From the NCBI GenBank assembly GCA_905147135.1, contig LR990067.1, forward strand, positions 10,602,001-10,666,000: a DNA stretch of 64,000 bases, written 5' to 3'. The notes under the pieces were generated by a model. It had not been told where the DNA came from, ran no database searches, and worked only from the letters and a program-made list of their open reading frames with translations. Below are positions 10,167 through 44,052 of the stretch, one piece after another. A program made the translations under genes and the position numbers. Numbering within the stretch: the stretch's first letter is position 1; each line of letters begins with the position of its first letter. Source of the DNA: Blastobasis lacticolella (lineage: Eukaryota > Arthropoda > Insecta > Lepidoptera > Blastobasidae).

Positions 10167-10436
10167 TAAAGTTTATTGATTTTAAGTAAGGTTAAGTTGT
10201 TTAATAAAATGTCAGAACATTGAAAATGTCATTTAGGTACATTTTTGGTATGAAACCCTAATTTATACATATAAAATTGAGGACCGCTATTTACAAGATT
10301 TGGATATTAAAATGGTATACAATTAATACTAAATCCGACCCTGTTAGTATCAAAATATTTTCGATCACCGAAATGTTGCTCAATTTGCCAATAATTTTAA
10401 ATCTATCTTTAATGGCATGTTGTTTTAAGGTAAAAC
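10167..10436. other. Short AT-rich spacer
   Basis: No feature recognised between the 3' end of element B and the zinc-knuckle segment of element C. The apparent ORF running through it (from 10277) is only a chance extension of element C coding. Confidence 0.35.
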
Positions 10437-24046: not shown

Positions 24047-24655
24047 TCATTTAGCACCTTCACTTTTAACTCTAGTAGTCTCTTTAAACAGAGCATCCAA
24101 CCCCGACATTTGAGTCTTCGACATTTTAGCACCTTTCATATCTAGCACCTTATGGAACTCAGCCAAAGAACATTCTGGAAGCAGCTGAACGAATTGACCG
24201 ACAAAACCTTCTAAATTCCCTTCCAACGGTGCCATGACCAATTTCAGCACCATCTCTGCTTTAGTCATCAGTTTTATGACTACTTTAGTATATGTAGCCG
24301 GGGCTTGTCGTTTCACTTCCGACCCGATAGATGGCAGGTCGAGTAAAGCCGTCTTCAACATATGAGTATCTAGAAGCAGCTGTTCGGAACCTACCGTCGA
24401 AATTGGCTTACATTTATATATATTTTGTATAAACTTCGGTATGAAGGAATTCGCGAATCTTATACAGAATTGGGTGAAGTATTTTCTGGAGGAAGCTAAA
24501 TTGTTTCTTAGGTTTGGGACGGCGTTCTTAAGATGCATAATGATTTGGGTGACGTAGGAGCTCTGGTCGCCTACGTTCTCGAAGTTGAGCCAGGATATCT
24601 TGGCCATGGCGTTGAGGGCTGGTTCGCAGGCGATTTCTAAGTCTTGGACCAGCAT
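24047..24655 (-). CDS. Vps53: Vps53 exon 12, last coding exon (residues 593-794)
   Basis: Acceptor AAATCCACAG, then [58 protein letters not shown] and [16 protein letters not shown], ending [10 protein letters not shown] and a stop at 24049-24047. This is the conserved C-terminal helical domain (Vps53_C). The largest exon and the most conserved part. Confidence 0.96.
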
Positions 24656-27600
24656 CTGTGGATTTGGATTTGTTTGTTTTCACATTTTACAGCTGTAGGC
24701 GCAGTCCTAATTGGCATCGGTCGTGCGACCATGGTCGTATGATGGGCGTGCTCGACCAATAGGTGATCTCAAAACCGCCCGTCTACCGTTGTCAATTAGG
24801 ACACCGCCTTACATTAATTAAAATATAAAATATATAAGTCTTTATAAGAGATTGTCTATTTTTCTACACATGCATTCATCGTGGAAAAAGAATTAAAATA
24901 ATATACTAAAATAAAATATTTTGTATACACAATGGTTATTGGTAATGTCATTGTCAAGTCTTAAGTGTTTATATACATAAGTATACGGTATTATAACAAT
25001 GTAAAATATAAAAAAAAAATTTTTTTTTTCAAAAATAATAACCAAAATATCACCGTAGATAGATCAACAGGCATAAATAGATGTCAAACATAATATTCAA
25101 CTATAATTAAAATTGAAAACATGAAATCCTACGCTTACCTGTATACAGGAGCTGATGAGTTTGTGGAACAGATCCTGTTCCGGGGTCAGGTCTATCCTTT
25201 CCGCTAGACCTGGAGAGACCTTCTCCTTCAGTTTCTGTTCTAGATGTATGGTGGTTTCGAGACAGTATTCTGATGTCGTGATCACGCTGGTTATCTTGGC
25301 TATCTCTTGCTTCGTGTACCTGTGGTGGGCAAATAAATAAATATGATTGGACAAATTCACACAGCGCCATCTATCCCCAACGTAAGCAAAGCTTGTCAGA
25401 ATCATTATCACAGCCCGTAACAGTCCACTGCAGGACTTAGGGCCTCTCCCACGAAAGGGGAGGTTATTGCCATAATCTGCACGCTTGGCAGGCGGGTTGG
25501 AGATCGCAGTGTTTAAATATAACAATGGAAAACGCTGCTGCCCATTTTCCAGACTTCGGAGACTCTTGATCTTTTGCCTCGAAAACATTAGTCGCCTTGT
25601 ACGACACCCACGAGTGTAAGGGGTTGGTGCTATTCTACTCTGCCAGACACCACACGGCCAGCTTGTCAGAATGCTACTTCAAACAGTGTAGTTCGGCCGT
25701 GCCTCACTAGATGGCGCTGCTTAGACAGGATTCGGAAGTACTGAATTCGGTAACCGAAGTTACCCGGAGAGGTGTGTCGTGGAAACATACGAGTACTTAG
25801 TTGTAGTTCTTTTTCTGTAAAGAGCCAAAATTTGTATATTTCATCTGACGGTCTCATTTTGTTTTATTTTGAGAATCGTGTCTGATTAACGCCATCTATT
25901 GCAATTATTGGAACTATTTTTCACTTTTTTTTTATACCACTAATGTGGAAAACAAGCTTGCGGCCTGCCTAATGGTAAGCAGTCACCGCAGCCTATGGAC
26001 GTTTGCTATAGACTACAGTTACTATAACTAGAGCTATAGTTACAATAGACTACCAATTTACTGTCCTATAGTATAGTACGTGCTAAAGTACGTCATAAGA
26101 GCGTCGGTGGCTTAGTGGAGCACCGGTTTCGAGTCCCAGTGCCGTCATGCACCAATGACTCTTTTTTTTTGTTGAATAGACTATAACAGGTAACAGAAGG
26201 GCGCCGTAGGTTATCGAATACAAGAAAAATTCCACTTTGTAGAGATAGTAAATATGGTCTTTTTTTTATGACATACGATAGGCAAACAGGCAAGCGAGCC
26301 ACCTGATGGGAAGTACTCTCCACTGCCTATAGACATTAGCAACACCAAGACGTTAGCCAATGCGTTGCCCACCTCTGTAAAACGTTGCTCTGGCAGCAAA
26401 AAGGCAAATGCCCCTCCACTGCCAAAGCCACGGTTCCCCAAATCCCCACCCCATGGAGCACTGGAGACCTTACTCACCGGCAGAAACACAATACTATTTA
26501 AAAGAGTATTGTTTAGCTGCGGTATTCTGTAAGGTGGAGGTACATCCCCAGTCGGGCGGCTCCAATTCGAACGAGAAACCCCGCTATGCCCTACCTCTCT
26601 TATAATACAAGAAAAATTCCACTTTCTCGGTCTGCCCTAGATCTTAGACTAGTCTCACCTAGTAGTGGGCGCGCTGTCGTCCCTAAGCAGCGCCTGTAGG
26701 TTGGTGACGGCGAGCGCTCCCAAGGGCCCTATGGTCTCACCTAGTAGTGGGCGCGCTGTCGTCCCTAAGCAGCGCCTGTAGGTTGGTGACGGCGAGCGCT
26801 CCCAAGGGCCCTATGGTCTCACCTAGTAGTGGGCGCGCTGTCGTCCCTAAGCAGCGCCTGTAGGTTGGTGACGGCGAGCGCTCCCAAGGGCCCTATGGTC
26901 TCACCTAGTAGTGGGCGCGCTGTCGTCCCTAAGCAGCGCCTGTAGGTTGGTGACGGCGAGCGCTCCCAAGGGCCCTATGGTCTCACCTAGTAGTGGGCGC
27001 GCTGTCGTCCCTAAGCAGCGCCTGTAGGTTGGTGACGGCGAGCGCTCCCAAGGGCCCTATGGTCTCACCTAGTAGTGGGCGCGCTGTCGTCCCTAAGCAG
27101 CGCCTGTAGGTTGGTGACGGCGAGCGCTCCCAAGGGCCCTATGGTCTCACCTAGTAGTGGGCGCGCTGTCGTCCCTAAGCAGCGCCTGTAGGTTGGTGAC
27201 GGCGAGCGCTCCCAAGGGCCCTATGGTCTCACCTAGTAGTGGGCGCGCTGTCGTCCCTAAGCAGCGCCTGTAGGTTGGTGACGGCGAGCGCTCCCAAGGG
27301 CCCTATGGTCTCACCTAGTAGTGGGCGCGCTGTCGTCCCTAAGCAGCGCCTGTAGGTTGGTGACGGCGAGCGCTCCCAAGGGCCCTATGGTCTCACCTAG
27401 TAGTGGGCGCGCTGTCGTCCCTAAGCAGCGCCTGTAGGTTGGTGACGGCGAGCGCTCCCAAGGGCCCTATGGTCTCACCTAGTAGTGGGCGCGCTGTCGT
27501 CCCTAAGCAGCGCCTGTAGGTTGGTGACGGCGAGCGCTCCCAAGGGCCCTATGGTCTCACCTAGTAGTGGGCGCGCTGTCGTCCCTAAGCAGCGCCTGTA

Positions 27601-30600
27601 GGTTGGTGACGGCGAGCGCTCCCAAGGGCCCTATGGTCTCACCTAGTAGTGGGCGCGCTGTCGTCCCTAAGCAGCGCCTGTAGGTTGGTGACGGCGAGCG
27701 CTCCCAAGGGCCCTATGGTCTCACCTAGTAGTGGGCGCGCTGTCGTCCCTAAGCAGCGCCTGTAGGTTGGTGACGGCGAGCGCTCCCAAGGGCCCTATGG
27801 TCTCACCTAGTAGTGGGCGCGCTGTCGTCCCTAAGCAGCGCCTGTAGGTTGGTGACGGCGAGCGCTCCCAAGGGCCCTATGGTCTCACCTAGTAGTGGGC
27901 GCGCTGTCGTCCCTAAGCAGCGCCTGTAGGTTGGTGACGGCGAGCGCTCCCAAGGGCCCTATGGTCTCACCTAGTAGTGGGCGCGCTGTCGTCCCTAAGC
28001 AGCGCCTGTAGGTTGGTGACGGCGAGCGCTCCCAAGGGCCCTATGGTCTCACCTAGTAGTGGGCGCGCTGTCGTCCCTAAGCAGCGCCTGTAGGTTGGTG
28101 ACGGCGAGCGCTCCCAAGGGCCCTATGGTCTCACCTAGTAGTGGGCGCGCTGTCGTCCCTAAGCAGCGCCTGTAGGTTGGTGACGGCGAGCGCTCCCAAG
28201 GGCCCTATGGTCTCACCTAGTAGTGGGCGCGCTGTCGTCCCTAAGCAGCGCCTGTAGGTTGGTGACGGCGAGCGCTCCCAAGGGCCCTATGGTCTCACCT
28301 AGTAGTGGGCGCGCTGTCGTCCCTAAGCAGCGCCTGTAGGTTGGTGACGGCGAGCGCTCCCAAGGGCCCTATGGTCTCACCTAGTAGTGGGCGCGCTGTC
28401 GTCCCTAAGCAGCGCCTGTAGGTTGGTGACGGCGAGCGCTCCCAAGGGCCCTATGGTCTCACCTAGTAGTGGGCGCGCTGTCGTCCCTAAGCAGCGCCTG
28501 TAGGTTGGTGACGGCGAGCGCTCCCAAGGGCCCTATGGTCTCACCTAGTAGTGGGCGCGCTGTCGTCCCTAAGCAGCGCCTGTAGGTTGGTGACGGCGAG
28601 CGCTCCCAAGGGCCCTATGGTCTCACCTAGTAGTGGGCGCGCTGTCGTCCCTAAGCAGCGCCTGTAGGTTGGTGACGGCGAGCGCTCCCAAGGGCCCTAT
28701 GGTCTCACCTAGTAGTGGGCGCGCTGTCGTCCCTAAGCAGCGCCTGTAGGTTGGTGACGGCGAGCGCTCCCAAGGGCCCTATGGTCTCACCTAGTAGTGG
28801 GCGCGCTGTCGTCCCTAAGCAGCGCCTGTAGGTTGGTGACGGCGAGCGCTCCCAAGGGCCCTATGGTCTCACCTAGTAGTGGGCGCGCTGTCGTCCCTAA
28901 GCAGCGCCTGTAGGTTGGTGACGGCGAGCGCTCCCAAGGGCCCTATGGTCTCACCTAGTAGTGGGCGCGCTGTCGTCCCTAAGCAGCGCCTGTAGGTTGG
29001 TGACGGCGAGCGCTCCCAAGGGCCCTATGGTCTCACCTAGTAGTGGGCGCGCTGTCGTCCCTAAGCAGCGCCTGTAGGTTGGTGACGGCGAGCGCTCCCA
29101 AGGGCCCTATGGTCTCACCTAGTAGTGGGCGCGCTGTCGTCCCTAAGCAGCGCCTGTAGGTTGGTGACGGCGAGCGCTCCCAAGGGCCCTATGGTCTCAC
29201 CTAGTAGTGGGCGCGCTGTCGTCCCTAAGCAGCGCCTGTAGGTTGGTGACGGCGAGCGCTCCCAAGGGCCCTATGGTCTCACCTAGTAGTGGGCGCGCTG
29301 TCGTCCCTAAGCAGCGCCTGTAGGTTGGTGACGGCGAGCGCTCCCAAGGGCCCTATGGTCTCACCTAGTAGTGGGCGCGCTGTCGTCCCTAAGCAGCGCC
29401 TGTAGGTTGGTGACGGCGAGCGCTCCCAAGGGCCCTATGGTCTCACCTAGTAGTGGGCGCGCTGTCGTCCCTAAGCAGCGCCTGTAGGTTGGTGACGGCG
29501 AGCGCTCCCAAGGGCCCTATGGTCTCACCTAGTAGTGGGCGCGCTGTCGTCCCTAAGCAGCGCCTGTAGGTTGGTGACGGCGAGCGCTCCCAAGGGCCCT
29601 ATGGTCTCACCTAGTAGTGGGCGCGCTGTCGTCCCTAAGCAGCGCCTGTAGGTTGGTGACGGCGAGCGCTCCCAAGGGCCCTATGGTCTCACCTAGTAGT
29701 GGGCGCGCTGTCGTCCCTAAGCAGCGCCTGTAGGTTGGTGACGGCGAGCGCTCCCAAGGGCCCTATGGTCTCACCTAGTAGTGGGCGCGCTGTCGTCCCT
29801 AAGCAGCGCCTGTAGGTTGGTGACGGCGAGCGCTCCCAAGGGCCCGACGCTCGCGGACCCCGCGCGGGGTAAGGCTGCTTGAAGTACTACACTCGCGTAC
29901 TCGCGTAAGTACTTTTGGAATACGCCCGATAGCTCTGCGAGAAAAACATAAAACAATGGACTTTATTTCATTAGCAATACATTCCACTTTGATTTGCTCT
30001 CACGCTTTTGCTTCTGAAATTGGAGGACTGAATTTAGCCAAACGTAATAAGCGCAACGTAACGTAATGGCTGGTTTTCATTGGTCAAGGGCAGTGGCGTC
30101 TCGCCACTGACGAGAAACAGTGATATATGACGGCAGCTTGCAAGCCAAGTTGAGGCAAAGGCAAAACTGACAACAACCGAAAAGGGATGTTTTCAAACCC
30201 TTATAAAAATTAAGAAAATAATTTTCTTTTTAATTTTAGTGACTTAACGGCATTTAAACATACCCTTTTTTTGAAATCATGTCTAAAATTTTACATGTTA
30301 TGAGCAATTAAAAATATTTGAGCAAATAGGTTTACATATTTGCGAAAAAGACGCCAATTTCAAAGGTCATCGACGACAAGTCGGCCGCGAGTGGTCACAC
30401 TGGTCTGCTACGTTGGAAGCCGGAGTGAGGGTATTTATAAGCGTGCAAGAGAGAGAGGGCGACATCGCCCGTTTCATTTACTCCAACAGAGGCAGCAGTA
30501 TAGTGCCATTTCATATTTGGCGGTGAAGGGTCTAAGGTAAAGCTTAGATGGAGAAGGTGGAAAAGGGTAATTACCCACCTGGCCGGGGTTCGCGACCAGG

Positions 30601-33600
30601 GGACTAGGGGTCAGTTGATCATCGGAAGGATTATTTATGCCGCGGAAGTTGGCACACTTCTCTAGCGCGATGTAGGTCGATCAGAGCCATCTATGTGCGG
30701 ATGCTTGCCAACCTTGTGTTCGTGTACTCGTAATGTGAGTATTGTTGAGATTCCCTATTGGAGCGATAGATTTCGCTACACATAAAAACAATCGAGTTTC
30801 ACTACGCTTCTCCTAGTCTCAATATTAGAGTAGGATGGTGACATTATAGTAGAATCCATCATCATATCAGCTGAAAAACGCCCACTGCTGGGCATAGGTC
30901 TCCCCCAGAGATCTCCACGGCGCCGGCGGCGGCCGGTCCCGTGCTTTCCGCAACCAGCTGGTACCTGCCATCTTTACCAGGTTGTCGGTCCACCTTGCGG
31001 GAGGCCTACCCACTCCTTGTCTAGAATGGTGACATTAAATATGATAGTAAGATGGTAACTCACCCCGCATTGGCTCTCCCGTAGTCAGCCTCGCGCACTG
31101 CACCAGACACTTCTTATAGAACAGAAATAGATCAGCGCAGCTCGAGAGCACCGCGCCGCCACCGGAAGGGTCTGTGGGTTCTGATGACTTCGCTTCCTGT
31201 GGGCAAGAAGCAGTAATTTTTTTTATGTTACGCAGTGACAAACGAGTAGACAGCTCATTTGATGGTAAATGGTCACTGTCGCCCGTAACATCTACAATTC
31301 ATGCATTTAGGGCGCAGGTAACAAAAATGTAGAACCGCAGGAGCGTTGTCACTGTAAGGACTAATGAAATGTGTCATGCCTGTAATGCGCTGGCTACCTT
31401 ATCCTTCAAACCGGAACACAACAATGCAAGCATCGTTGGTTGGCGACAGAAATAGATAAGGCGGTGGTACTCACCCTGGCGGACTCCTCAGGCTTGACAG
31501 AGTCCTACCACTACCCTGTTCCTCCCATACCCCTACCCTACCGTACCCATTTTTGCATACAAGCTGCGGTCAAGCGGTTCTTGGCTTTTAGCGAGACTAC
31601 ACGAACAGCAATTGAATTATATATGATTATTTAGATGTTAAGTATCTCCCACGCACAGTAAGTTTTTCCCTGGAGAGTGCAACATGCCGCCAAACGACAA
31701 TGCTTGCATTTGTGCGTTCCGGTTTGAAGGACAAGGTAGCCAGCACAATTACAGGCATGAGGCATTTCATCTTAGTCCTCACTGAATGCATGAATCGTAG
31801 ATGTTATGGACGACAGTTACCGCTTACAATCAGGTGGGCTGTCTGCTTGTTCGTCACTGCGTAGTATATAAAAAAGTGGTAGGGTAGGGGTAGGCTTGGA
31901 GTAGAGTAGAGGTAAGGTTTTTTTTTTTTTTTTTAGTCATACGGTAGGCAAACAGGCAAACGGGCCACCTGATGGAAAGTGGTCACCACCGCCTATAGAC
32001 ATTGGCAAAACCAAGAGTACCACGGCGGCCTGTCCCGTGTCTTCAGCAACCAGCTGGCACCTGCGATCCTTACCAGGTCGTCGGTCCACCTTGCGGGAGG
32101 CCTACCCACGCTGCGTCTTTCGGTACGTGGTCGCCACTCGAGAACTTACTGCCCCATCGGCAATCTGTTCTTCGAGCTATGTGCCCTGCCCACTGCCACT
32201 TCAGTCTGGCAACAGTTACACTACACTTAGAATATCTATAGTAAGACATCTTCATCCATCCAACTAACCTGAACGAACCTATCCATCAAGGCTCTCAGGT
32301 TGGCGTCCAAGCTGGTGATGTACAGTCCCAGGTAGGGCTCGAAGCAGCGCCCCACCAGACCCACCCAGGGGGACGACACGTTCGCGGGATCCGAGGGGGT
32401 TGGCTGGGGATGTTTATTCATTTATTTATTTATTCAAGAAATTAACATGGTAAGTGTAAGTACAGTCTTAAAATATAAAACTAATTAGTACGGCTAAAAA
32501 TAGTTTTTTTTTATATACGGCAGACAAACAGTGGTAACCACTTTCCAACAGGATGCCCGCTGGCCTGTTTGGCTACCGAAAGACACAAAAAAACAACAAC
32601 AGGCAAGCGGGCCACCTGATGGTGCGTGGACATCAGTACCCCGAGTGTAAGTGTTCATTCGTAATAAACGTAGCTATTGCGTTTGCATTAAGTTTCAATT
32701 TTTAATGAAAATTTGAACAGCGCCTATAGCGAAGAGTGATAGAAAAAAAATAGTGTATCTGTGAGTGTATCTGCCAAAATGACATTCCACTGATATGTGC
32801 GTACGCTCACTTGGTCGAAAGTGTAGCAAAAATTACACGACTTAATCAAACGAAATTGTCAAAACAGCTTATTTTTACTTATTTGACTTACCTACACGTA
32901 CCTACCTACTTGTGTGTTTGTTATTACCCGCTTCAATGTGAGTTTGAACATCCATATCTCGCGAACCGATTTTCTTTTTCTTAATAAACTTTAGTTTATA
33001 CTTATTTGTGCTTACAATAAAAAACAGATTTATTAGAGTATTTACTATAATATTTTACAGAGTATTTGCTAATTTTAAAATTAAATTAAAAATTCGATAA
33101 ACAATTATTATCAACGTAAACTATATAAACACATGTCCAAACATCAAGTAAGTTACTTCACTGCATTTTGGTTGTGAAACTATTTTATCTGTGACATTTG
33201 TCAGTTACAATCGCACAACTTGACTTAGACTCAGAGAGAACGCAGTCGATACGTTCAGAACCTTATTATCAAAAGTAAAATTTAATTCAAATACTTTTCG
33301 CAAGGCGCTGTTCAAGTTTCCATACAAAATAGGAAAAAGCGGATCGAACATAGTAAGCTCGATTAACCTGATCAAGTATTATTCCAATTTTTGTGTAAAC
33401 AGTTACACTTGAAGTACAGCGACACCAATGCGTTGCCCCTCTCTAAGGACACCTCTTATATTCCTCTTGAAGGAAACAGCAGAGAGGATGAATAAGATTT
33501 ATCCTCTCTACATGACCAAACCAACTCAGCATTCCTTTTCCTATCCTGCACCTACTTTCAGTCCCCCCACTCCCATGGTGTTGCTGATGTCCATAGGCGG

Positions 33601-36600
33601 CGGTGACCACTTTCCATCAGGTGGCCCGCATGCCTGTTTGTATGACGTATAACAACGGCGTTGTAAGAGACTACAGTCCTGAATTCTTATAATAATGGGA
33701 CTTGAGTTCTCATTTATGACTTAGTTCCTTTTAAAGACTCGAGTCTGAGTCCAGTTGACTCTACCTTAATATGTCCAGAAATTGAAATGATGAATTTTAA
33801 TTTCTGTTACGGGTCCGGGTGTTCTATGTATAATAAGTATGTATTTAAAAGTATTTAAGTAGTATATCAGTTATCTAGCACTAGTTTGGGGCTAGATGGC
33901 GCTGTGTGAATTTGTCCACGAATATTTATTTATTTATTTTTGTGATGTCAAAACAAAGCATGTCTGTGTGTATGTCAATACAGACCTCTGCGTCCTCTTC
34001 CGCGTCGAAGTCGATCGGGCGGTCGGCCGGCCGGGGGGTCACGCCGCCGGCCTCCAAGTCCGTGCCTGTGGAACATCTTGTATTGTTAAAAGTAAATATT
34101 TAAAATTTGAACAATTCTCTTTGATATTAATAATGTAATTTAATTTGAAAAATGACATTTATACATACATAAAGCTCACGCCTGGGACACAGGTGGGGTA
34201 GGCAGAGACTATGACATTTACAAATTTGACATATTGTAATTATTTGGACTTTGTGCACAGCAAAAGTACAGTGGCGGACTTAAAGCTAAAATAGCCTTAT
34301 CTATTTTCTAATTTTCAATTTGCCAATTTTCTAAGAAATGAACTATTATATTGTATTGTATTGTCATACATATTCATGGGATAAAACTTACCAACAAACC
34401 GCTTATGCAGCAACAGCTCAAAGTTATAAGTCTTCTGGATAGCATACAACAGCAGCTTGACATCAATTTCGTTCTTCCGCGCGGCCATGATGGAAGTCAG
34501 CTGTTCGCGCGTGACGTCACAGAACTTGGCGGTGAGGCGTTCGCTGACCCTCCAGCTGGGAGGGAAGACCGAGCCCAGGGTCTCCTCGAAGGTCAGGAGG
34601 TGTTTCTTGAGCCACGCGTACCGACGCTCTATGTGAGCGAGCCAGGCGCATTCCTGGAACGGTGATAGTATGATAGTATAGTTAATAATTTTGTTAGTAG
34701 TAGACAGTGGAATGTATTGCTCATAAAAGTGGAGCGACGCGAAACATAATATGAGTAATACAAAAAATGGACATTATTTTATGAGCAGTTTTCCAATAGG
34801 TATCTAAAGCATTCCTAACCACTCACTTTACTGAGATGACTTTTTTTAGATGGCGCCCCGATAATTTTGGTAATTCATAAAGGTTAGCAAATAGGTTCTT
34901 AGCAAACAGGATATAAACTGGGTACGTTGTATTGGATAATATTGTATTTGCCAATATTTTTCAACCTTTTTAGAGGTTGTAATAATAATGGAACTTAGTG
35001 GTCACTTTAATAAATATATCTTTTTACACTTCGTTCAACCTTTAACAGTTATGTTTATATTAATAAACATTTTATTTTTAAGTTTAGTATTAGTTGGCTG
35101 CATGAAATCTCTGCCACCATCATACAGATTATAAAAAGATTACCAAAATTGTAGGAGCGCCATCTATTGATGCTCTTTGAAACTAACTATCAATACCTAC
35201 TGGAAAACTCCTCATTTGTTTGCTCTAACGATTTTTGCTTTTGAATTTAAGTGACTGAATTTAGTCCAATGTAATATGCGCAATAGTGGGGCATTGCGTC
35301 CGAATTGGAGATGCCAGACTAAGAAATTCCACCTCCACTTTAGAAAATACCGCAGACAAACAATACTATCTATATTACATCAAACTGTAGATAGAATCTA
35401 AGCGACAATGGAGATGCGAAACCGTTGGCTCCAGAAGCTTGAAAATTTGCACCAACGTTTATACATGACGTAGGTGAGTGCGTGCTAAGATGGGATTTTT
35501 GGAAATTCCCCCCCTAAAGAGGTGAATTGGGGGGTGGATATTTGTATGCAACTTATTTTTCCTTCAGTGGATTCACTTGGAACTTTGTACAAATATTCAG
35601 CAATATGAATATTTTTTTAATTGGTCTTGACCCTCCATGTGGGCGGGAAGATAGAGCCCAGGGTCTCTTCGAAGGTCAGGAGGTGTTTCTTGAGCCACGC
35701 GTACCGACGCTCTATGTGAGCCAGCCAGGCGCATTCCTGGATCGGTGATGGCGTGGTTAATAATGCAGATAGTAATAGACAGGTAGAGAGGTAGGGCATA
35801 TGCGCTTGGACATATAACATTTGACTAAATTCAGCCCACTGCTGGGCATAGGCCTCCCCCACAGATCTCCACGGCGGCCGGCCCCGTGCCTTCCGCATCC
35901 AGCTGGCACCTGCGATCTTTACCAGGTCGTCGGTCCACCTTGCGGGAGGCCTACCACACTGAATAGTGGTTGCCAAATCGCTCAAATAAGAGTCATGGAG
36001 GACAGATGGCAGTCGCTCCACTGTAATTATCTGATCTTCCAAATCCTGGATCGTGGTCAAGGCGGACCCCGGACCCACGTGCGCGAGAGCACAACCGGGA
36101 TATTAACGCCAACATGATTATTTTTTATTTATATGAACCAAATGCTATTTTTTTTCTTTTATTTTCAGCTCCTCAAAATGAATAGCCAGGCCAAGAACCC
36201 AGGCACCTAATCATTAGAGGTAGGACTCGGATCACATTTGATTCGAATGAGGTTTTATGTCGATTCGAATCATCGCTTGATTCAAATCCACGAGCTAATT
36301 TGAATCAATATATTTAATTCGACTTTTGCATTGCGCGGCAAACTTATCTTATAGATGAGACAAGAGTGATAACTTCAAATTTTTTCGTTTTAAACAAAGT
36401 TGTACTCGAATAAGTATTTATTTATAAGTATAGTATAAATAAATAAATTCACAATTAGATCTATCTATGTAAGCGAACGGCCACACAGAAAAGACGCACA
36501 CACGTCGCGGACAGAGCACAGACGGGACGCGGACACGACTTAAAACATACAGAAAAGACAGAGCACGGACGCGGCGCCGTCGCGGACCAGTCAAGAGCGT

Positions 36601-39600
36601 AGGCAAGACAAGGATAGCACGCGCTGCGGGCGAGGCCCGGCTCCCGCGCCCCGCCCGCACCCCCGCTCTCGCCAGCGGCGCGCCCGGGCCCCGTCCGCCC
36701 TGTATGTTTTAGGTCGTGTCTGCGACGCGTCTGCGCCCTGTCTTTTCTGTATGTTTTGCGTTGCGACGTTTGTATACATTTAGTATGAAAGTAAATTGAA
36801 CGGGCGCCGCGTCCGCGACGAGTCTACGTCTTACGTCTTTTCTGTGTGGCCGCTCGCTAAGTATTTTAATTTATTTATTTATATCTAGTCATATGATTCG
36901 AATCAAGGATTCATTCGAATCATGATTCGAACTTTTGCCGGAAGATCCGAATACAAATTTTTGCTTTGAGTATCACCATTAGCATCACCACACTAAGCGT
37001 AGTAGTGTGATGATGACAGTGAAGTGCTTGGACGCGCAGTTTCTGCACCGGACAGTCATAAAACGCGCCGGCACCATCGCTAGCGCGTTCTAATCGCCGC
37101 GCAGCGCCATCTACCGAGTACGTAACGCAACACCGCCCACCTGGTCCTCGGCGAACAGATGCCTATACTCCTGCAGCTGCAGCCGCTCAGAGCCGGTTCA
37201 TACGCAGTTCAATACACTGACCCGGTAGTCCTAGCAAGCGGCCACACAGAAAAGACGCAGACACGTTGCGGACAGGGCACGGGACGCGGACACGACTTAA
37301 AACACTAGTAATCACTATTGTCTCATCTATAAGATAAGTTTGCCGCGCAATGCAAAATTCTAATTAAATCAGCTCGTGGATTCGAATCAAGCGATGATTC
37401 GAATCATCATAAAATCTCATTTGAATCAAATGTGATCCGAGTCCCACCTCTAATGATGAGGTAGATAATTCCGCGCCGCGTCCGCGCCCTGTCTTGTCTG
37501 TATGTTTTGCGTCGCGACGTTTCTATACATTTATAGTAAACGCCAAATCTCGCTGCAGACTCGGTCATAAAACGTGGCAGCGGTGCCGCGAGAGCTTCGC
37601 TCCCTTTCGCACCCACGGGCCTTATGGAGTGACGTAGACGGCGCGTAGTGCTGTATATTATTGCTGTCGATGAGCGTTATCGATAGTGTATTTTTAAAGG
37701 TGGTTGACAGAAATTAAAAACATGTATAGTTCAATATTATGTTTATTACTAAAGTTAGTATAATTTATACAAAGAAATAAATAAATAAAAGAAATTATTA
37801 AAATAATATAAAATAAGGAATAAATAAAATCTTATTAATAATTCAACATAATAATTAACAGACTTTATATAAAACAAAACTTAAATTAATCATCAGGGTC
37901 ATCATCATCGTCGTCATCATCATCATCATCTACATGAATAATGAATTCTTCATTTAAATGGGCTTTTTTGAAGTCTTCGTCTTGGAGATTTTCTGCATGC
38001 TTCACACATTGTTGCCAGTTTTCAATGGTTACATTAGAAATGGCTTCGTGCAGTATTTTTTCAACATCAGCGATTTTAAAAGTGCTCTTCTTGGTGGCGA
38101 CTTCATTTTTTGATTTTGAGATAATGCTTAATTTATTTTTGTTTGCGGTTTATATACCTTATTTCCATAGCTCTAATTGAGGGAGGCATGTAGGGGCTGC
38201 AAACAGTTGCAATGAAAAACAAATGACTCATTAAAGCTCATTAGATAACGATAACGACACCTTTGTGTCGCTTGTCAATTTGTCTCATTTTTGTAATACA
38301 TGAAAACAAATTAACTAATGAGTTTGGAAAACACATTATTAGTACATTCCATTTCAGTTAGTCACTTGTTTACTTCTTTAGGCGGGCCCTTGATGACTCA
38401 CAGGTTTTTATCGATAACGGCCTTGCGCCCGCGCCGCTAACGCACAACCCTAGCCTGTTTATGATTTATGGCCCTCTCTGCAGCGAGATTTGGTATGTAA
38501 GTAAATTGAATAGGCGCCGCGTCCGCGACGTGTCTGCGACTTACGTCCTTTCTGTGTGGCCGCTCGCTAAGTATTTAATTTTTTTTTTTCATTCAGTCAT
38601 ATGATTCGAATCAAGGCTTCATTCGAATCATGATTCGAACTTTTGCCGGAAGATCCGTATATAAATTTTTGATTTGAGTGTCACCATTGGCATCACCACA
38701 CTTAAAGTAGTAGTGTGATGATGACAGTGATGTGCTTGGACGCAGGGATGTTAGATGCCAAGTCAGAAATTATGGCACAGGCCTGTCAAAATTCTGGTAC
38801 TTTAGAAAAAGTTATTGTACGCAGTGTTACCAGCAGTATAATAATAATAATAATAATGGAAGTACTATGGTACGATCACCTGGAAAATGGTACGTATAAC
38901 CAGTGTTACCAGCAATAGTTTCCAAAAAAGTACATCCGGGCTCCTAGAATAGTACGAAAATGGCTAAAAAGGTACGGTTTACCTTCTCTTATATTTTATC
39001 GGCCTTCGGGGGGGGGAGGGGGGGGGATAGTAACGGCGTTATTTTGACAAGACAAGACCTGATTTACTCGGTGGTGGTGCCAGTGAGCCAAAAACCGTCA
39101 AAATTAACCCTTCCTTCCATTATTTTAAGGTATTTTGCGGACAGAAAAGGCAAAGTGACCAACCCCCTCAACTAAATTAAGCATTTTGTAAAAACGTACT
39201 AAATAGTACGATGTGGACCAAAGTACGCAAAAGGTAGGAGTGGGCATTGAATCAACGAACGTGTTTTTTTAACTGCTTTTCTAATGTTAACTTAGTAACT
39301 GCTTTCTGTTAACTGAAAAACTAGTTGAATGCATCAACCTGTTTTTCGAAACGAGACGAATGAATAACGATTTGTGACGAAGTTTAACGAAGTCGGTTGA
39401 GCATTACGAGCGGGCGAATTTTATTCCATTAGCTAGATTCACTCTTATTTATTTATTTACAGAATTAATTACACGGGTAAACCTAATTACAGTAATTAAT
39501 ATCTATTAATTACTGTAATTAGGTAATAATACAATATTCTTATAAATAAAATTAATAGACACTATAAATTAAAATTAATAAGCACTGGTTCACGGGTACA

Positions 39601-42600
39601 GAAACGATGACAGTCAGATTTAATTTTGCTTAAATTTTATCAGCAAAGATTACATACTCAAACAAACAAAATCAATTTTTGAAACGAATAAATGACTACA
39701 TTAAAATTATTTAGCGGGTTGGCGTACCGTTAATCGACTACTTAGAATGGTACATTTCTATTAACTGCAATGTATGTATTCAGTTGAACCAACCAGTTAA
39801 TAACGTTAACTGCTTTTTCAACTAGTTGATCATTAATAATAATCGGTTAAATTTCGTTAACCTCAAAGCCGTCAATGACCCACCTCTAGCAAAAGGTACG
39901 ACAGTCGGCCAAATAGTACGTAAATCGTACCAAATGGTACGATCTGGCAACGCTGCGTATAACATCCCTGCTTTATGCACCTTTTCCACAGAGTACAAAG
40001 CGGTGCCCTTTTAAGAGGAAAACGTCACTGTTTTGTACTCGGTGGGAAAAGTGCACAAAGAAGACGGGTGTTCGGATAGTCGTAAATCACGCGGGCACCA
40101 TCGCTAGCGCGTTCTAATCGCCGCGCAGCGCCATCTACCGAGTACGAAACGCAACACCACCCACCTGGTTCTCGGCGAACAGCAGTTCGCGGCTTCGCAA
40201 ACGTAGGAGCGTAAGACAAAAAGCTTTGGCGCGTAGCTTCTGCTCGTTATTTTTTTTGTTTTTAAAAAAAATTAATTTCGTTGCTTACTGATTTTTTATT
40301 TGTTTGTTTCAGATAGTCCTAAGAGACGATATGCTTTGGCGCGTAGCCTCTGCAATTGTTGGTTGTCAAAACGCCACCTGCAGAGCTGTAAAGACGCCAC
40401 CCACCTTGTCGTCGGCGAACAGCTGCGCGCGTTTTAACCAGCGCAGCAGCTCGCGGCTTCGCTTCATACGCAATTCAAAACACTGACCCGGGAGGCCTAT
40501 GAGACGATGTTGTCTGCACAGTTTTTTGGTTTTATTTTCGTTCATATTTTTCTTTTTTTTACTTTTCTTTTGGATTTTTTTTTGTCTCTTAATAATTGTT
40601 TTTTTTTTCTGTTGCTTATTGATTTTTTTTGTATTTTTTTAGATAACTTTGGTTTTTTTTTAGATTGTCAAATGGTTTGTTCATGAATGCAGCCCGTTGG
40701 TTGTCAAAACGCCACCCAAAGCCCCGTAAGCGACACCAACGGTCCCAATCCAGCCCACCTGGTCGTCGGCGAACAGGTGGCGGTACTCCTGCAGCTGCGC
40801 GCGCTCGAACCAGCGCAGCAGGTCCCGCCGCACGCGCGGCTCCAGCGCGCCCGCCGCCACGCACGCCTCCGACAGCGTGCGCGACGATATCGTGGGCTTG
40901 CTGCCGCCTGGAAGCGGGTGGAAATGTATTTATTATTTATTTATTTAACACTTTATTGTACACTAGCTGCGAAACCCGGCGTTGCACGGGTTAAAATATT
41001 CACCGTTAGTGTAAAAAATACATGAATATACATTGATAATAACCGATATTATTAATTTCAGTACTATCTAGATCATTCTAGAAATTTTCAGAACTTTCCC
41101 GAAGTTCTAATGAGTTAGAAAAGGACAGATATATATCTTATATTACATTTTTGCCTCCCACAACCACCCACTTCCACCCACCGCGCCCAAACTCCCTTAC
41201 TTCCTTCTAGGACCCAAGGGGTGTCTACCACCCCAATGGGGTGTTGGTTGGAATTGGTGGTGATAAAGAAAACCGGTCACACACGTACCCACACAAGCAT
41301 TTTATATATATATTAAGATTAAGAAATTTAGATTAACAGTATAATTATCACAGATTCTGTAAGATTATGACAAGTACAAGGGCGGTCTTATCGCCAATGG
41401 CGATCTCTTCCAAGCAACCATTTACATGGATATAGTGGAGGTCGGAAAGCAAAAACTAGTAGGCAATGTACATTTGAGATTCCTTACAGAAGTTACAATC
41501 ACCATACAGTGAAGAAATGCAATATATATGTATACTATACAAAGAACAAAAAAAACAAATACAAATATATCAAACCAAACAAAAACAATACTAATTAAAA
41601 TACAAAAACCGCTATACAAGACACAGACGATAAAATCATGTGTTCAGGGTGAAAGAAGATGACCCTTCAATCTTCTTTTGAATATACTCAGCGAATCCGA
41701 ACATCTCACTTCACGGGGAAGCGCATTCTACAGGCGTACCGAATGTAATGCGGTCGTGGGTGGGAATGTAACTTATGGGGGATTTACAATGGTCAAGTGT
41801 TTAGAGAAGTTTACAAGTACAGTGAGTAAGTTGGGGTCGGCAACGCGTGGGTGATGCCACTGGTATTACAAACGTATATCTATATGGGCTGCGGTGACTG
41901 CAGCGAAATAATTCCTACTTTCCTATCCCCCACCTTTTTGACGATTGAAAGAGATATTTAGTGTATCAATAAAGAAATTTTGAACTTGAGTTTGAGTTTG
42001 AACTTACCAGTGAAAGCCTCCTTGAAGTCTTCAAGGATCTGCTGCCCCAGCTGGGTGCGGATGTCAGAGACGCGAGCGCGAAGGGCCGACAGTTCGGCGA
42101 TGTCTTTGTACTTCTCCAGCTGCTGTAGCACTTCCATTATTGCCTGGGAATGACCATTGTTGTTTTACTTAGAAGTTGTCAAGATATTGCCTCAAGAACA
42201 TTCGCACGCCATATAACTCGTTAGGAGTTTTACTTCCACCGGGTACGATGGTATACCATCGTGATAAATGTGCGGCAAGCCAGAATGAACTTTATGGTCT
42301 GCAACAAAAGGTCTATAGTTACTATACACACGACCGTCTCGAATATACCCAGACGTTACCGTGGCTATTCTCGAAAACGTTCGGACTAGTTCACTAGAAC
42401 ATTCCAGTATCGGGGCCGGGGTATCCTACATATACGAGTACAAGAACAATTCTACTTTGTAGCGATAGTAGAAGTTTAGAAGACCCACAAAGCGTCGGTC
42501 TGCCGTGCACAAACTGGCACATAAAATTTGCCTAGGTTAGCAATTGAACTCATGAAATTGATGATACGTAATCGCAAAACTGTCAATTTCAATCATTGAA

Positions 42601-44052
42601 TTCAGAGAATTGTTAGCTACAGAGTTACGTAGGTAATTAGCAGACACTTTAGAATAGAATTAGGTGTTAGACAGAATAGATCAATTATACATATACAGAA
42701 GGTAACATATATAGAACAATTATATAATAGATAGAATAGAATTAGGTGACAGACCAAGCGTGTAAGTCTGGGGTTGTCAAAACCTCACCTGTAAAGGCAA
42801 CACAATCTCCTTATACTGCCTATTAGCCGTCATATGCTGCAAGGAATCCACCCCACCAGCCAGCATGTGTAGGTGGTTCAAGGCGGTGATGGCAGCCGTC
42901 AGGTTGGATTTCGCGCAGTCCAGCTGTTTGATCTCAGCCGTGATGCCTCGCACCATGGTCTCACTGCGTTCTGCTGCTTTGTTTATGTCTGCCACCTGAG
43001 AGAAGAGTAAGCAGTTTTACAGATTATGGGGGATTTTCAGAGAGCTACTATGAAAAGTAAAAAGTGCAGCGTGTGTCACTAGATGGCGCTGCTTAGGCAG
43101 GATTCTCTAGTATCGAATTTGGTAACCGAAGTCGGAAAGGTGTTCTGTGAAAATATACTTTTGTTTATTTATTTAAAGCAGCCTGAATCATCACACTGCT
43201 GGGCAAAGACCTCCATCCTTCGATACTTTGCAATCGAAAATATACTTAGTTTGATGTATTGAATGGTCTTGTTTTTATTTATTTTTTGAGAATTGTGTGT
43301 AATCAACTCCGTCTACAATTATTTGAAAAAAGATGTAACATCTGTCTATACAAACCACCCATTTCCATATAGAAGTTCCCAAATACCTGTACAGCCAACT
43401 CAGCGATGCACTGTCTTGCTTCAACTAAGGCCTGGTGGCCCGCTTGACGTTGTTCGGCCTGAGCACGTACTAGCCTCCGAATGTCATGCTCTACTCCTTG
43501 TAAGCGGAACTCACACCTGGCCGCTGCTGATTCTACACCTGATAGTGACTGCTCCGTGGGAAATACGCGATTTATGTAGGACACAGCATCAAACTGGAAT
43601 AGATAATAAACGAATGGAGAATTAATAAAAGAAAGTAATAATAATATTGTTGTATATTGAGGTTCATTCGGTCCTTGTGATACTATAAAGTAGTAAATGT
43701 GTAAATTACTGATAAAAGAGGGACTGTAGCTAGTTTTTGAAAATAATGTTGTGCGTACTATGGCCTACTCATTTCTTATTAGAATCTTATTTACTATGAC
43801 AAGGGTTACAGGAAGACTCCTGAGATAATAGTCGTGATGTTAGAGAAGGTGTATGATAACTTAGCTACTGAATATATAGTTAGTTATCGCTGTAAAACGG
43901 TAAAATGTGCAAAATACGGAGCGTACTTCATCACTATCAAATTGTTCGGTTCCGCCCATTAGTTCCTCGATTTTGTTCATGACAGAGCTCGGGAAGTTGA
44001 GCTGCACCTCAGCCCCGCTATCCTTGTCGTCCAATAAATCCATTGAATCCAT
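24047..44052 (-). CDS. Vps53: Vps53, GARP/EARP tethering-complex subunit (12 coding exons)
   Basis: Vps53 is a shared subunit of GARP (trans-Golgi) and EARP (recycling endosome) complexes, which tether endosome-derived vesicles and help SNAREs fuse them. Coding exons in transcript order: 44052-43927, 43593-43387, 42995-42789, 42143-42008, 40907-40759, 34653-34392, 34065-33986, 32403-32269, 31196-31064, 29934-29775, 25319-25139, 24655-24047. Every intron is GT-AG, phases match at each junction, and the sum is 2,385 nt (794 residues plus stop). Landmarks typical of the family: [12 protein letters not shown] (about residue 47), [15 protein letters not shown] (about 147), [19 protein letters not shown] (about 283), [54 protein letters not shown]. 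The N-terminal part is predicted coiled and helical (Vps53_N); an acidic linker lies at about 365-395. The frame is intact, so the gene looks functional despite heavy repeat load in introns 5, 7 and 10. Confidence 0.96.
24697..24810. mobile_element. Small TIR element in Vps53 intron 11
   Basis: Inverted ends AGGCGCAGTCCTAATTG and CAATTAGGACACCGCCT with a GC-rich core, about 114 bp. Sits between exons 12 and 11. Superfamily uncertain. Confidence 0.5.
25139..25319 (-). CDS. Vps53: Vps53 exon 11 (residues 532-592)
   Basis: Acceptor GCCCACCACAG, then [38 protein letters not shown] and LISSCIQ; donor CAG/GTAAGC, phase 0 out. A SINE tail ends 11 bases upstream of the exon and supplies the pyrimidine-rich stretch. 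Confidence 0.95.
25331..25397 (-). mobile_element. tRNA-Gly SINE tail next to the exon 11 acceptor
   Basis: The minus strand reads agctttgcttacgttgggg, tagatggcgctgtgtgaatt and ends in ATTTATTTATTTG, matching the SINE at 22130. The tail stops 11 bases before exon 11. Confidence 0.75.
25403..25659 (-). mobile_element. SINE-like retroposon, copy 2, 13-bp TSD
   Basis: AGCTTGTCAGAAT lies on both sides (25390-25402, 25660-25672). Same family as 23757-24003. It landed in or beside the tRNA-Gly SINE remnant, within Vps53 intron 10. Confidence 0.85.
25673..25915. repeat. Dispersed repeat with agatggcgctgcttag
   Basis: Contains ctagatggcgctgcttagac, ggtaaccgaagt and gagaatcgtgt, shared with 43070-43320 in Vps53 intron 2. 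Non-coding. Confidence 0.5.
26262..26602 (-). mobile_element. LINE 3' tail in Vps53 intron 10
   Basis: Nearly the same as 5224-5571 (ggcaaacaggcaagcgagcc ... tgccctacctctctta). Ends about 50 bp before the tandem array. A short tRNA-Thr-like SINE piece lies just before it at 26100-26165. Confidence 0.6.
26652..29767 (-). repeat. 38-copy tandem array of the 82-bp exon 10/intron 10 boundary
   Basis: The spacing of the word gtctcacctag is exactly 82 bp, and (29768-26652)/82 = 38. With the real exon end (29768-29845) this makes 39 copies. In gene orientation each unit is the last 71 bases of exon 10, starting GGGCCCTTGGGAGCGC, then GTGAGACCATA, so each carries a consensus 5' splice site TAG/GTGAGA. 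I saw no difference between copies. GGGCCC occurs at both breakpoints, so microhomology may have started it. Each unit also has CCTACAG/GC, a possible acceptor 35 bases before the donor. At the far end the sequence leaves the unit after GTGAGAC and continues into TAGTCTAAGATC, the presumed original intron. Confidence 0.97.
29775..29934 (-). CDS. Vps53: Vps53 exon 10 (residues 479-532)
   Basis: Acceptor TTCTCGCAG, then [19 protein letters not shown], a GC-rich alanine/glycine stretch ([18 protein letters not shown]) and APTTR; donor TAG/GTGAGA, phase 2 out. The last 71 bases plus the first 11 of the intron are the unit of the tandem array that fills the start of intron 10. Reading past the donor gives an immediate TGA. 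Confidence 0.93.
29935..30854. other. Vps53 intron 9, distal part
   Basis: Holds a dispersed repeat near 29955-30060 (attccactttgatttgctct) and an unrecognised moderately GC-rich block at 30340-30720 with tatttataagcgtgcaagag. No exon seen. Confidence 0.4.
30855..31015 (-). mobile_element. RTE-type LINE 3' fragment in intron 9
   Basis: catcatatcagctgaaaaac, then the complement of the [11 protein letters not shown] / PPWRSLGE tail. Ends about 50 bp before exon 9. Confidence 0.65.
31064..31196 (-). CDS. Vps53: Vps53 exon 9 (residues 435-479)
   Basis: Acceptor TTGCCCACAG, then [37 protein letters not shown] and TTGEPMR; donor GGG/GTGAGT, phase 1 out. Confidence 0.95.
31215..31490 (-). mobile_element. 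Retroposon tail, left arm of an inverted pair
   Basis: Contains ttacgcagtgacaaacgagt, ccttatccttcaaaccgg and agataaggcggtggtactca. The same family appears inverted at 31640-31875 and again at 63490-63735. The pair lies in Vps53 intron 8. Confidence 0.55.
31640..31875 (+). mobile_element. Retroposon tail, right arm of an inverted pair
   Basis: gttccggtttgaaggacaag, ttacaggcatgaggcatttc and gcttgttcgtcactgcgtag mirror the arm at 31215-31490. Together they could fold into a long stem in the Vps53 pre-mRNA. Confidence 0.55.
31925..32255 (-). mobile_element. LINE tail plus RTE-type fragment
   Basis: A T-run and caaacaggcaaacgggccac, then about 230 bp whose minus strand encodes [13 protein letters not shown] and GGPTTW-like pieces of the RTE C-terminus (with frame breaks). 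Ends about 14 bp before the exon 8 donor. Confidence 0.6.
32269..32403 (-). CDS. Vps53: Vps53 exon 8 (residues 390-434)
   Basis: Acceptor CATCCCCAG, then [33 protein letters not shown] and LMDRFVQ; donor CAG/GTTAGT. 135 nt, phase 0. Confidence 0.95.
32404..33570. other. Vps53 intron 7, mostly AT-rich
   Basis: Short LINE-tail pieces in both orientations at 32515-32625. The rest (32640-33570) has no recognised element or exon. Confidence 0.4.
33575..33655 (+). mobile_element. LINE E-type 3' tail
   Basis: tggtgttgctgatgtccata and ggcggtgaccactttccatc, the terminal phrases of element E, here 5'-truncated to about 80 bp. Confidence 0.6.
33778..33940 (+). mobile_element. tRNA-Gly SINE without its head
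   Basis: Starts at ccagaaattgaaatgatgaa and continues through ggctagatggcgctgtgtga to a TTTATT tail. Lies in intron 7, about 45 bp downstream of the exon 7 donor in gene orientation. Confidence 0.7.
33986..34065 (-). CDS. Vps53: Vps53 exon 7 (residues 363-389), acidic linker
   Basis: Acceptor TTCCACAG, then [18 protein letters not shown] and DFDAEEDAE; donor GAG/GTCTGT, a weak but legal donor. Poorly conserved in sequence but matches the known acidic linker in position, length and phase (1 in, 0 out). Confidence 0.85.
34392..34653 (-). CDS. Vps53: Vps53 exon 6 (residues 276-363)
   Basis: Acceptor ACCGTTCCAG, then [33 protein letters not shown] and [20 protein letters not shown]; donor TTG/GTAAGT, phase 1 out. 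Its first 105 or so bases are duplicated about 1.1 kb upstream in the intron. Confidence 0.95.
34780..35216 (+). mobile_element. AATGAGGAG TIR element, copy 2
   Basis: From atgagcagttttccaatagg to ctactggaaaactcctcat, about 430 bp, close to the copy at 15420. Inserted in the tttgactaaattcag repeat, whose halves lie at 34725-34780 and 35217-35290. Within Vps53 intron 5. Confidence 0.7.
35617..35736 (-). pseudogene. Partial copy of Vps53 exon 6 with its acceptor
   Basis: Begins after ATCACCGATCCAG and encodes [20 protein letters not shown], then [15 protein letters not shown] as in exon 6, then KTN and a stop (35619-35617). About 45 bp of upstream intron is duplicated too. There is no donor. 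Because exon 5 ends and exon 6 starts in phase 0, splicing into this copy would give a truncated protein of 275 + 39 residues. Confidence 0.88.
35833..35957 (-). mobile_element. RTE-type LINE 3' fragment
   Basis: Complement encodes [18 protein letters not shown] and [14 protein letters not shown]. It happens to be open in the same frame as the exon 6 copy downstream, giving a chance 153-codon ORF (36078-35617). Confidence 0.7.
35980..36118 (+). mobile_element. tRNA-Thr-like SINE 3' fragment
   Basis: gacagatggcagtcgctcca, aaatcctggatcgtggtcaa and gcacaaccgggatattaacg match the 3' half of the family at 2178. Head missing. Confidence 0.65.
36468..36855. repeat. GC-rich inverted-repeat element (ggccacacagaaaagacg)
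   Basis: Left aacggccacacagaaaagac and right gtcttttctgtgtggccgct are complementary, with cgtcgcggac/gtccgcgacg inside. Partial copies: 37239-37310, 37470-37520 and 38510-38570. No coding potential that I trust. Confidence 0.55.
37141..37216 (-). pseudogene. Decayed Vps53 exon 5 copy c
   Basis: Encodes [16 protein letters not shown] and then a GTGGGC donor, against exon 5 [16 protein letters not shown]. Upstream it matches copy a (gggtcagtg-attgaactgcgtatgaa). Indels bring a TGA into the frame. The downstream flank is the chimeric repeat also seen at 40060-40165 and 16800-16870. Confidence 0.8.
37886..38114 (-). pseudogene. Transposase-like C-terminal fragment with an aspartate tail
   Basis: Encodes [38 protein letters not shown] and then ten Asp codons and a stop. 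The VEK-x-LHEAI / NW-x-x-CVKHAE pattern recalls C-terminal ends of Tc1/IS630-like transposases repeated in insect genomes, but I cannot confirm the family. Only about 75 codons are open. Confidence 0.4.
38560..38755. repeat. Direct duplicate of 36845-37040
   Basis: Both copies share catatgattcgaatcaagg, aacttttgccggaagatccg, ttgagtatcaccattagcat-type and gatgatgacagtga-gtgctt in the same order over about 190 bp. About 1.7 kb lies between them. Confidence 0.65.
38901..39955. mobile_element. hAT MITE copy 3, TSD CGTATAAC, carrying an insertion
   Basis: Starts CAGTGTTACCAG, ends CTGGCAACGCTG, flanked by CGTATAAC (38893-38900, 39956-39963). Same family as 13589 and 14012. A stub of another copy (cagtgttaccagcag) lies just before it at 38821. 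In Vps53 intron 5. Confidence 0.9.
39235..39888. mobile_element. Second hAT element, TSD GCAAAAGG, nested in MITE copy 3
   Basis: Ends TAGGAGTGGGCATTGA and TCAATGACCCACCTCTA are imperfect inverted repeats. GCAAAAGG flanks both sides (39227-39234, 39889-39896). 654 bp with aactagttga-type palindromic words; non-coding. Confidence 0.85.
39966..40164. repeat. Chimeric repeat, second full copy
   Basis: tttatgcaccttttccacag and ttttgtactcggtgggaaaa arms, then gcgggcaccatcgctagcgc and cgcgcagcgccatctaccga, matching 16683-16930. Here it runs directly into exon 5 copy b. Confidence 0.65.
40165..40202 (-). pseudogene. Decayed Vps53 exon 5 copy b
   Basis: Encodes [10 protein letters not shown] followed by GTGGGTGG. 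Compared with copy a ([18 protein letters not shown]) it has lost eight codons. Too short to be a credible exon. Confidence 0.7.
40405..40482 (-). pseudogene. Vps53 exon 5 copy a: open 78-nt cassette-like segment
   Basis: Follows GGGTCAG and precedes GTGGGTGG. The 26 codons are open: [15 protein letters not shown] then [11 protein letters not shown], against exon 5 [18 protein letters not shown]...LFADDQ. 78 nt keeps frame, and both neighbours meet at phase 0, so inclusion after exon 5 would add 26 residues. The downstream flank ggtggcgttttgacaaccaa is also shared with the flank of real exon 5. The pyrimidine tract is poor, so it may be dead. Confidence 0.75.
40759..40907 (-). CDS. Vps53: Vps53 exon 5 (residues 226-275)
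   Basis: Acceptor CTTCCAG, then [15 protein letters not shown] ... [19 protein letters not shown] and ADDQ; donor CAG/GTGGGC, phase 0 out. Very GC-rich and arginine-rich compared with its AT-rich introns. Three decayed copies follow within 3.8 kb in intron 5. Confidence 0.93.
40966..41310 (-). mobile_element. Helitron-like element in Vps53 intron 4
   Basis: The minus strand ends cccgtgcaacgccgggtttc, gcagctagtg; the other end is rich in atatatat with aatgcttgtgtgggtacgtg. The CCGGG-(C)TAG end fits insect Helitrons. Confidence 0.5.
41311..42007. other. Vps53 intron 4, proximal part
   Basis: AT-rich with no recognised element apart from a short cctttcaatcttcttttgaa-type stretch. Ends at the exon 4 donor at 42007. 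Confidence 0.35.
42008..42143 (-). CDS. Vps53: Vps53 exon 4 (residues 181-226)
   Basis: Acceptor CATTCCCAG, then [18 protein letters not shown] ... [15 protein letters not shown]; donor CTG/GTAAGT, ending one base into a codon. Confidence 0.95.
42144..42788. other. Vps53 intron 3
   Basis: No recognised element or exon. Chance ORF at 42176-42397 only. Confidence 0.35.
42789..42995 (-). CDS. Vps53: Vps53 exon 3 (residues 112-180)
   Basis: Acceptor TCTCTCAG, then [18 protein letters not shown] and [19 protein letters not shown]; donor CAG/GTGAGG. 207 nt, phase 0. One of the most conserved parts of the family. Confidence 0.96.
43070..43320. repeat. Dispersed repeat with agatggcgctgcttag, copy 2
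   Basis: Shared with 25673-25915 (cactagatggcgctgctta, ggtaaccgaagt, gagaattgtgtgtaat). A short RTE-like piece (cacactgctgggcaaagacc) interrupts it near 43195. In Vps53 intron 2. Confidence 0.5.
43387..43593 (-). CDS. Vps53: Vps53 exon 2 (residues 43-111)
   Basis: Acceptor TATTCCAG, then [19 protein letters not shown]; donor CAG/GTATTT. 207 nt, phase 0 at both ends. A helical region rich in A, R, E and Q suits the coiled-coil N-terminus through which the complex assembles. Confidence 0.95.
43927..44052 (-). CDS. Vps53: Vps53 exon 1 (residues 1-42)
   Basis: Start ATG at 44052 ([16 protein letters not shown] ... [14 protein letters not shown]), donor GTACGC, phase 0. The length before the conserved [12 protein letters not shown] fits known Vps53 starts. 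Confidence 0.9.

Follow-up and report, generated by a model that had tools for sequence, protein, structure and literature searches.

What turned one splice donor of a conserved trafficking gene into a row of 39 identical donors, and how does the gene live with it? The question is raised by a stretch of 64,000 nucleotides from the lepidopteran Blastobasis lacticolella (assembly GCA_905147135.1, contig LR990067.1, positions 10,602,001 to 10,666,000 of the forward strand), referred to below as the window. Here the gene for Vps53, a subunit of the Golgi-associated retrograde protein (GARP) complex, carries a tandem array that straddles the boundary between exon 10 and intron 10. We propose, with a probability of roughly 0.7, that the array is a GC-rich minisatellite that arose from one duplication over this boundary, then expanded, and is tolerated with the first donor (donor 1) kept.

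An array of identical splice donors in Vps53

The array exists in the assembly as an 82-bp unit repeated head-to-tail. By direct count it comprises 38.95 copies (38 complete ones and a truncated one of 78 bases), which show no difference over the 3194 bases, and the exact periodicity breaks off sharply at both ends (coordinates of all features are given in Table 1). Tandem Repeats Finder (TRF) returned the same array (period 82, 39.0 copies, 100% match, 0% indel, score 6388), while the 21 remaining rows of the window scored at most 77. The original prediction, made from the bare sequence, had already described 39 copies without a difference.

In sense direction the unit reads GGGCCC...CCACTACTAG, which are the 71 bases at the end of exon 10, followed by GTGAGAC and CATA. 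The unit had been described as 71 exon and 11 intron bases; the 71 were confirmed, and the 11 resolve into 7 intron bases (GTGAGAC, present in every copy) and 4 bases (CATA) confined to the 38 joints between copies. Exon 10 reads GAGCGTC upstream of the first copy and then enters GGGCCC. Downstream of the last copy, GTGAGAC directly adjoins TAGTC / TAGTCTAAG, without CATA. In the unit that is transcribed first, the exon part is the true end of exon 10, because its peptide carries the conserved protein on into exon 11.

A script that checked every position found 39 identical donors CTAG/GTGAGAC at 29775-82k (k = 0..38), so that the 38 extra perfect donors of the original prediction are all present. 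Their context is identical over 71 bases upstream in 39 of 39 and over 11 bases downstream in 38 of 39. Therefore, only order and distance from neighboring splice sites can decide which donor is used.

The host gene lies on the minus strand. Its exons were placed from open frames and splice signals; in the predicted protein, exon 1 encodes 42 residues and exons 2 to 12 encode 752. A single open frame contains both domains expected of Vps53, namely Vps53_N (405.1 bits, cut-off 26, E = 3.6e-121) and VPS53_C (64.6 bits, cut-off 24.7, E = 1.3e-17) of Pfam. Among the best 120 of 1462 related proteins, the top 35 are 64-75% identical to it; 33 of these 35 are named, and all 33 are from Lepidoptera. 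A separate protein search with one exon-2 frame returned four short proteins, and a PDB search with Vps53 yielded no match at E <= 0.001. As judged from these comparisons, the gene is an intact Vps53, closest to lepidopteran Vps53 among the matches listed, in agreement with the initial assignment of gene and exon. The array makes up 3123 bp of intron 10 (29774-26652). The remaining 1332 bp outside the array suggest that the intron is older than the array.

Two units served as query against the genome of the species itself (45 contigs, 577 Mb); this search skips very common words, and its counts are lower bounds. At least 20 matches were obtained, all inside the Vps53 array, so the unit does not behave as a satellite DNA family, in which one unit occurs at many loci. 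With 82 bp x 38.95 copies at 100% match, it falls into the class of minisatellites or variable number tandem repeats (VNTR; many head-to-tail copies of a unit some 10-100 bp long).

An interspersed repeat lies close to the array, at 26280-26602. Its sequence recurs at 5246-5566 with 92% identity over 324 bp, and some 50 bp separate the copy at 26280-26602 from the array's far end.

Consequences of donor choice

A script over all 39 donors showed that donor 1 alone restores the full-length Vps53 frame, as had been predicted. Via donor 1 the exon is 160 nt long, as opposed to 242 to 3276 nt via later donors. Donors 2 to 39 all lead to a stop after 490 residues in exon 2-12 numbering (532 including exon 1). 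Among the donors listed, the distance of this stop from the exon 10/11 junction, which lies downstream of it, ranges from 81 nt for donor 2 up to 3115 nt for donor 39. Transcripts that use one of these donors and retain the units would thus have a stop upstream of the junction and would be expected to undergo nonsense-mediated decay. Readthrough past donor 1 meets TGA immediately, also as predicted, because GTGA is entered at the third position of a codon.

Exon definition pairs an acceptor with the nearest donor, and we assume it here because intron 10 is long. Splicing would then most likely proceed from donor 1, the donor nearest to the exon 10 acceptor, and the other copies would be ordinary intron.

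Splice sites were scored with rough matrices built from the 10 donors and 11 acceptors of Vps53 itself, so that all scores are only indicative. The repeated donor scored 6.21, and the donors of Vps53 as a whole scored between 1.78 and 10.93. The 38 extra sites might act as U1-binding decoys that tune Vps53 output, with copy number as a dial, through slower splicing, decay of mis-spliced RNA, or shielding from early polyadenylation. Identical donors of ordinary score and a premature stop from every donor 2 to 39 would be in line with such a function. However, the stop follows from the position of GTGA after two codon bases and needs no selection, and we consider a decoy function quite unlikely.

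Each unit also contains the motif CCTACAG. As an acceptor it scored 6.56, within the range of the gene's own acceptors (-1.04 to 10.19), and 1.6% of the AGs of the window outside the array score at least as high. Together with the following donor it would delimit a micro-exon of 35 nt. The original prediction had considered micro-exon or recursive splicing conceivable, and the acceptor it pointed to is indeed a credible one by score. Inclusion of 1, 2, 3, 4, 5 or 6 micro-exons nevertheless resulted in an early stop each time; such inclusions cannot yield full-length Vps53, and micro-exons were rejected as a source of protein. They could still be spliced in to give regulatory, non-productive isoforms, for which the acceptor score speaks. 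The premature stops in 6 of 6 inclusions leave no protein use, however, and the distance from a donor to the next CCTACAG acceptor is merely 47 nt, so that units would have to be skipped. We regard this role as highly improbable. The recursive part of the claim fared worse: TAG/GT scored -5.21 as an acceptor, and 60% of the AGs of the window outside the array score as high.

Related arrays in the genome and possible cases in other Lepidoptera

To place the array in its genomic setting, 25 stretches of 10 kb were sampled, 20 from one fixed position in contigs 1 to 20 and 5 from contig 28, which is that of the window. TRF was run with periods up to 500, and arrays were kept when the unit was over 100 bp and the match at least 98%, which left out longer, less perfect rows (e.g., L029, 138 bp x 3.0 at 87%). 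Six near-perfect arrays were obtained (L017, L010, L028, L016, L013 and L033). TRF revealed no exon-like array in the five stretches of contig 28.

One of the six, L017, has the design of the Vps53 array. Ten donors CAA/GTGAGT follow each other at a spacing of 113 bp, and the unit consists of an exon end, the donor and about 17 intron bases, with CGC common to exon and intron at the joint. As in Vps53, readthrough past the donor meets TGA at once. The peptide of two joined exons matches LLGL1 in PDB (E = 1.2e-20); Pfam did not recognize it. Of the 120 relatives listed, three bear the name lethal(2) giant larvae protein and a fourth is called LLGL2-like, and we refer to the gene as lgl. There are two distinct sequences among the ten copies, the last copy differing by one base in its intron part.

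This difference bears on the question whether the Vps53 array, which is known here from one assembly, could be an assembly effect, with few true copies or with real differences wiped out by polishing. While 39 copies with zero differences would fit such an effect, the lgl array of the same assembly retains a single-base difference, which indicates that copies are not always smoothed. The sharp ends of the Vps53 array and the presence of CATA in every joint also argue against it, and an array of 3 kb fits the usual length of long reads. We therefore consider an assembly effect unlikely.

The arrays differ in composition. G+C content is 65% in the Vps53 array, 65% in the lgl array, 77% in L010 and 58% in L028, as compared to 0.423 for the window including the array, 0.395 for the 250-kb genome sample, and 39-42% for the rest of L017, L010 and L028. 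The three arrays in which no host exon was seen have 29-37% G+C. In a genome with about 40% G+C, exon ends rich in GC are plausible seeds of such arrays, but the number of arrays at hand is small. By eye, L013 and L033 have a noncoding look, and L016 resembles the beginning of a mariner transposase.

Within Vps53, the 12 coding exons, each with 30 bases on either side, were compared with the rest of the gene. Besides exon 10, 2 of the 12 have boundary copies (exons 5 and 6), and no copy was found for the others in this comparison; a control with 20 block-shuffled genes gave 0 matches. The original prediction had treated the array as a single case, a view that does not fit the related cases in lgl and at exons 5 and 6. 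That the Vps53 array is one of a kind recurring in the B. lacticolella genome is the best explanation of these findings.

We also scanned the 124 proteins listed by the two protein searches for exactly repeated words of 12 residues, which were present in two, those of Cydia amplana and Operophtera brumata. In C. amplana (P0005, 1089 residues), a stretch matching the end of exon 6 occurs in seven copies at residues ~325-650, with an added short piece GADNDLQVAR and one spacing of 36 vs 50 residues. Vps53 of Cydia splendana, Cydia strobilella and Cydia pomonella contained no repeated 12-residue words. In O. brumata (P0058), residues ~127-183 match the end of exon 3 and the start of exon 4 twice, in not quite identical form.

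Proposed origin and tolerance of the array

We propose that the array began with a tandem duplication in which position +7 of the intron became linked to a site in exon 10 that lies 71 bases upstream of the exon's end, with the four filler bases CATA left at this first joint. CATA is absent from both flanks, and we therefore read it as filler from the first joint; as it is common to all 38 joints, the array most simply descends from a single duplication. Slippage or unequal exchange would then have raised the single unit to 39 copies.

A duplication that straddles a donor would spare the upstream exon and its first donor, and the extra copies would fall in the intron. In contrast, an 82-bp duplication kept within coding sequence would shift the frame. 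Since the former would be nearly harmless and the latter usually not, survivors are expected at exon boundaries, with the extra copies on the intron side. The stray copies of exons 5 and 6 each lie on the side that this predicts.

The identity of the copies had been taken to mean very recent growth, active homogenization or an assembly effect, a choice that is too narrow. With 2.9e-9 mutations per site and generation, as in butterflies, the lack of any difference over 3194 bases dates the last growth only to less than about 3.2e5 generations ago, and no special force is required for the identity of the copies.

Several observations weigh against this account. Folding provided no structural cause for expansion: neither one unit folded as DNA (z = -0.66) nor two units folded as RNA (z = -0.86) went beyond shuffled sequences, of which 41/200 and 42/200, respectively, folded at least as well. 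The origin of CATA has no explanation beyond our reading of it as filler. An array of the same design was found in only 1 of the 25 sampled stretches, and the remaining five near-perfect arrays differ from it in type by eye. The exon 5 copies lie beside an interspersed repeat that, by eye, recurs in the window and may have carried them. Finally, the Cydia and Operophtera cases are known from annotated proteins alone and may be gene-model errors.

Overall, the Vps53 array is most likely a selectively tolerated minisatellite and a striking member of a possibly recurrent class; the analysis yielded no evidence that it has a function. Scaled by hand, 1 in 25 stretches corresponds to some 2300 arrays per genome, with a Poisson range of roughly 60 to 13,000. 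As a tentative and rather doubtful extension, arrays of exon end and donor could form a class that recurs in certain Lepidoptera, with hundreds or even thousands of members per genome, generated by a mutational process that favors transcribed GC-rich exon ends. They would strike genes such as Vps53 and lgl time and again and extend introns by dozens of identical donors; they would be harmless by a strict first-donor rule, or their copy number would alter output.

Relation to known systems

Like other minisatellites or VNTR, the Vps53 array has a GC-rich 82-bp unit in 39 head-to-tail copies, found at one locus. It differs in that the unit straddles an exon/intron boundary and every copy contains a donor and 71 exon-derived bases. 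In the open-licence literature, as far as titles and the beginnings of abstracts tell, no minisatellite crossing a splice donor was found.

Ratchet points of recursive splicing share the juxtaposition of AG and GT that occurs at each unit boundary. They combine a strong acceptor with a strong donor that abuts it, whereas the Vps53 boundary pairs the poor acceptor context given above with a donor of 6.21. The idea of a zero-length exon is weak on this acceptor score, and it is impossible at the lgl boundary. Splicing studies of the 1980s reportedly made use of test genes with duplicated splice sites. There, too, several identical donors competed within one transcript; the Vps53 array differs from them in being natural, 39-fold and part of a conserved trafficking gene.

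Closest in concept is the model in which introns are gained when a segment containing AGGT is duplicated in tandem; according to a review (PMC3443670) and a further article (PMC4974935), there are fission-yeast genes in which such a segment of 24 bp occurs several times over. That model and the Vps53 array have in common that an AGGT-holding segment is duplicated in tandem (CTAGGTGAG is present in each unit) and that the extra copies could be removed by splicing with the protein unchanged. The array differs in having lengthened an existing intron, in its 39 copies and in the weak TAG/GT acceptor.

By analogy, TAG/GTGAG might serve as both acceptor and donor in Vps53, so that 82-nt mini-introns are excised singly and the mRNA stays unchanged. 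AGGT at the unit boundary, the restoration of an identical sequence when whole units are excised, and the precedent in the two sources would be consistent with such a stepwise removal. The weak acceptor argues against it, and the route is unavailable in lgl because the lgl exon ends in CAA. We consider it very unlikely and favor a tolerated minisatellite spliced from its first donor.

Arrays of this design are a natural test of choice among identical splice sites: given the identical context, RNA-seq on the animal would tell apart the effects that position and sequence have on the choice of a donor. Should the class prove common, it would provide a route for intron growth from exon ends. It would also be a warning for annotation, as copies can be misread as exons, which may have happened in Cydia amplana Vps53.

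Further features

Table 1. Positions of the features discussed. The first eleven rows refer to the window, the last three to sampled 10-kb stretches.
Feature	Position	Strand	Basis or remark
Vps53 coding region, open frame from start codon 44052 to stop 24047, 12 coding exons (model)	24047..44052	-	open frames, splice signals, Pfam
Exon 10, 160 bp, acceptor CTCGCAG, donor TAG/GTGAGA (donor 1)	29775..29934	-	open frame, splice signals
Intron 10, 4455 bp	25320..29774	-	gene model
Exon 11, 181 bp	25139..25319	-	gene model
Tandem array, 38.95 identical 82-bp copies	26652..29845	-	TRF and direct count
First unit in direction of transcription, exon part = true exon 10 end	29764..29845	-	position check
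The other 38 identical donors; exon-like sequence ends at 29775-82k, k = 1..38	26659..29693	-	script
Candidate 35-nt micro-exon, acceptor CCTACAG, motif present 39 times	29775..29809	-	acceptor score 6.56
Copy of exon 6 start (122 bp) with intact-looking acceptor, upstream of exon 6 within intron 5; 93% identity with 34545-34666	35628..35749	-	mirror case
Copy of exon 5 end (61 bp) with intact-looking donor CAG/GTGGGC, downstream of exon 5 within intron 5; 82% identity with 40746-40806	37128..37188	-	
Weaker second copy of exon 5 end, downstream of exon 5 within intron 5 (E = 2.9e-5; 68% over 74 columns)	40400..40455	-	
L017 (G000:C9:5000001-5010000), lgl array, ten 113-bp copies over exon donor	4391-5523	-	TRF
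L010 (G000:C2:5000001-5010000), 173-bp unit in 5.2 copies, 77% G+C, resembling a small exon between acceptor and donor	7416-8316		by eye
L028 (G000:C20:5000001-5010000), at least 3.8 copies of a 480-bp silk-like coding repeat, to the end of the stretch	8181-10000		by eye

Elsewhere in the window, the plus strand contains open frames at 6199-9788 and 10262-12822 that by eye resemble broken reverse-transcriptase and zinc-knuckle pieces of non-long-terminal-repeat retrotransposons.

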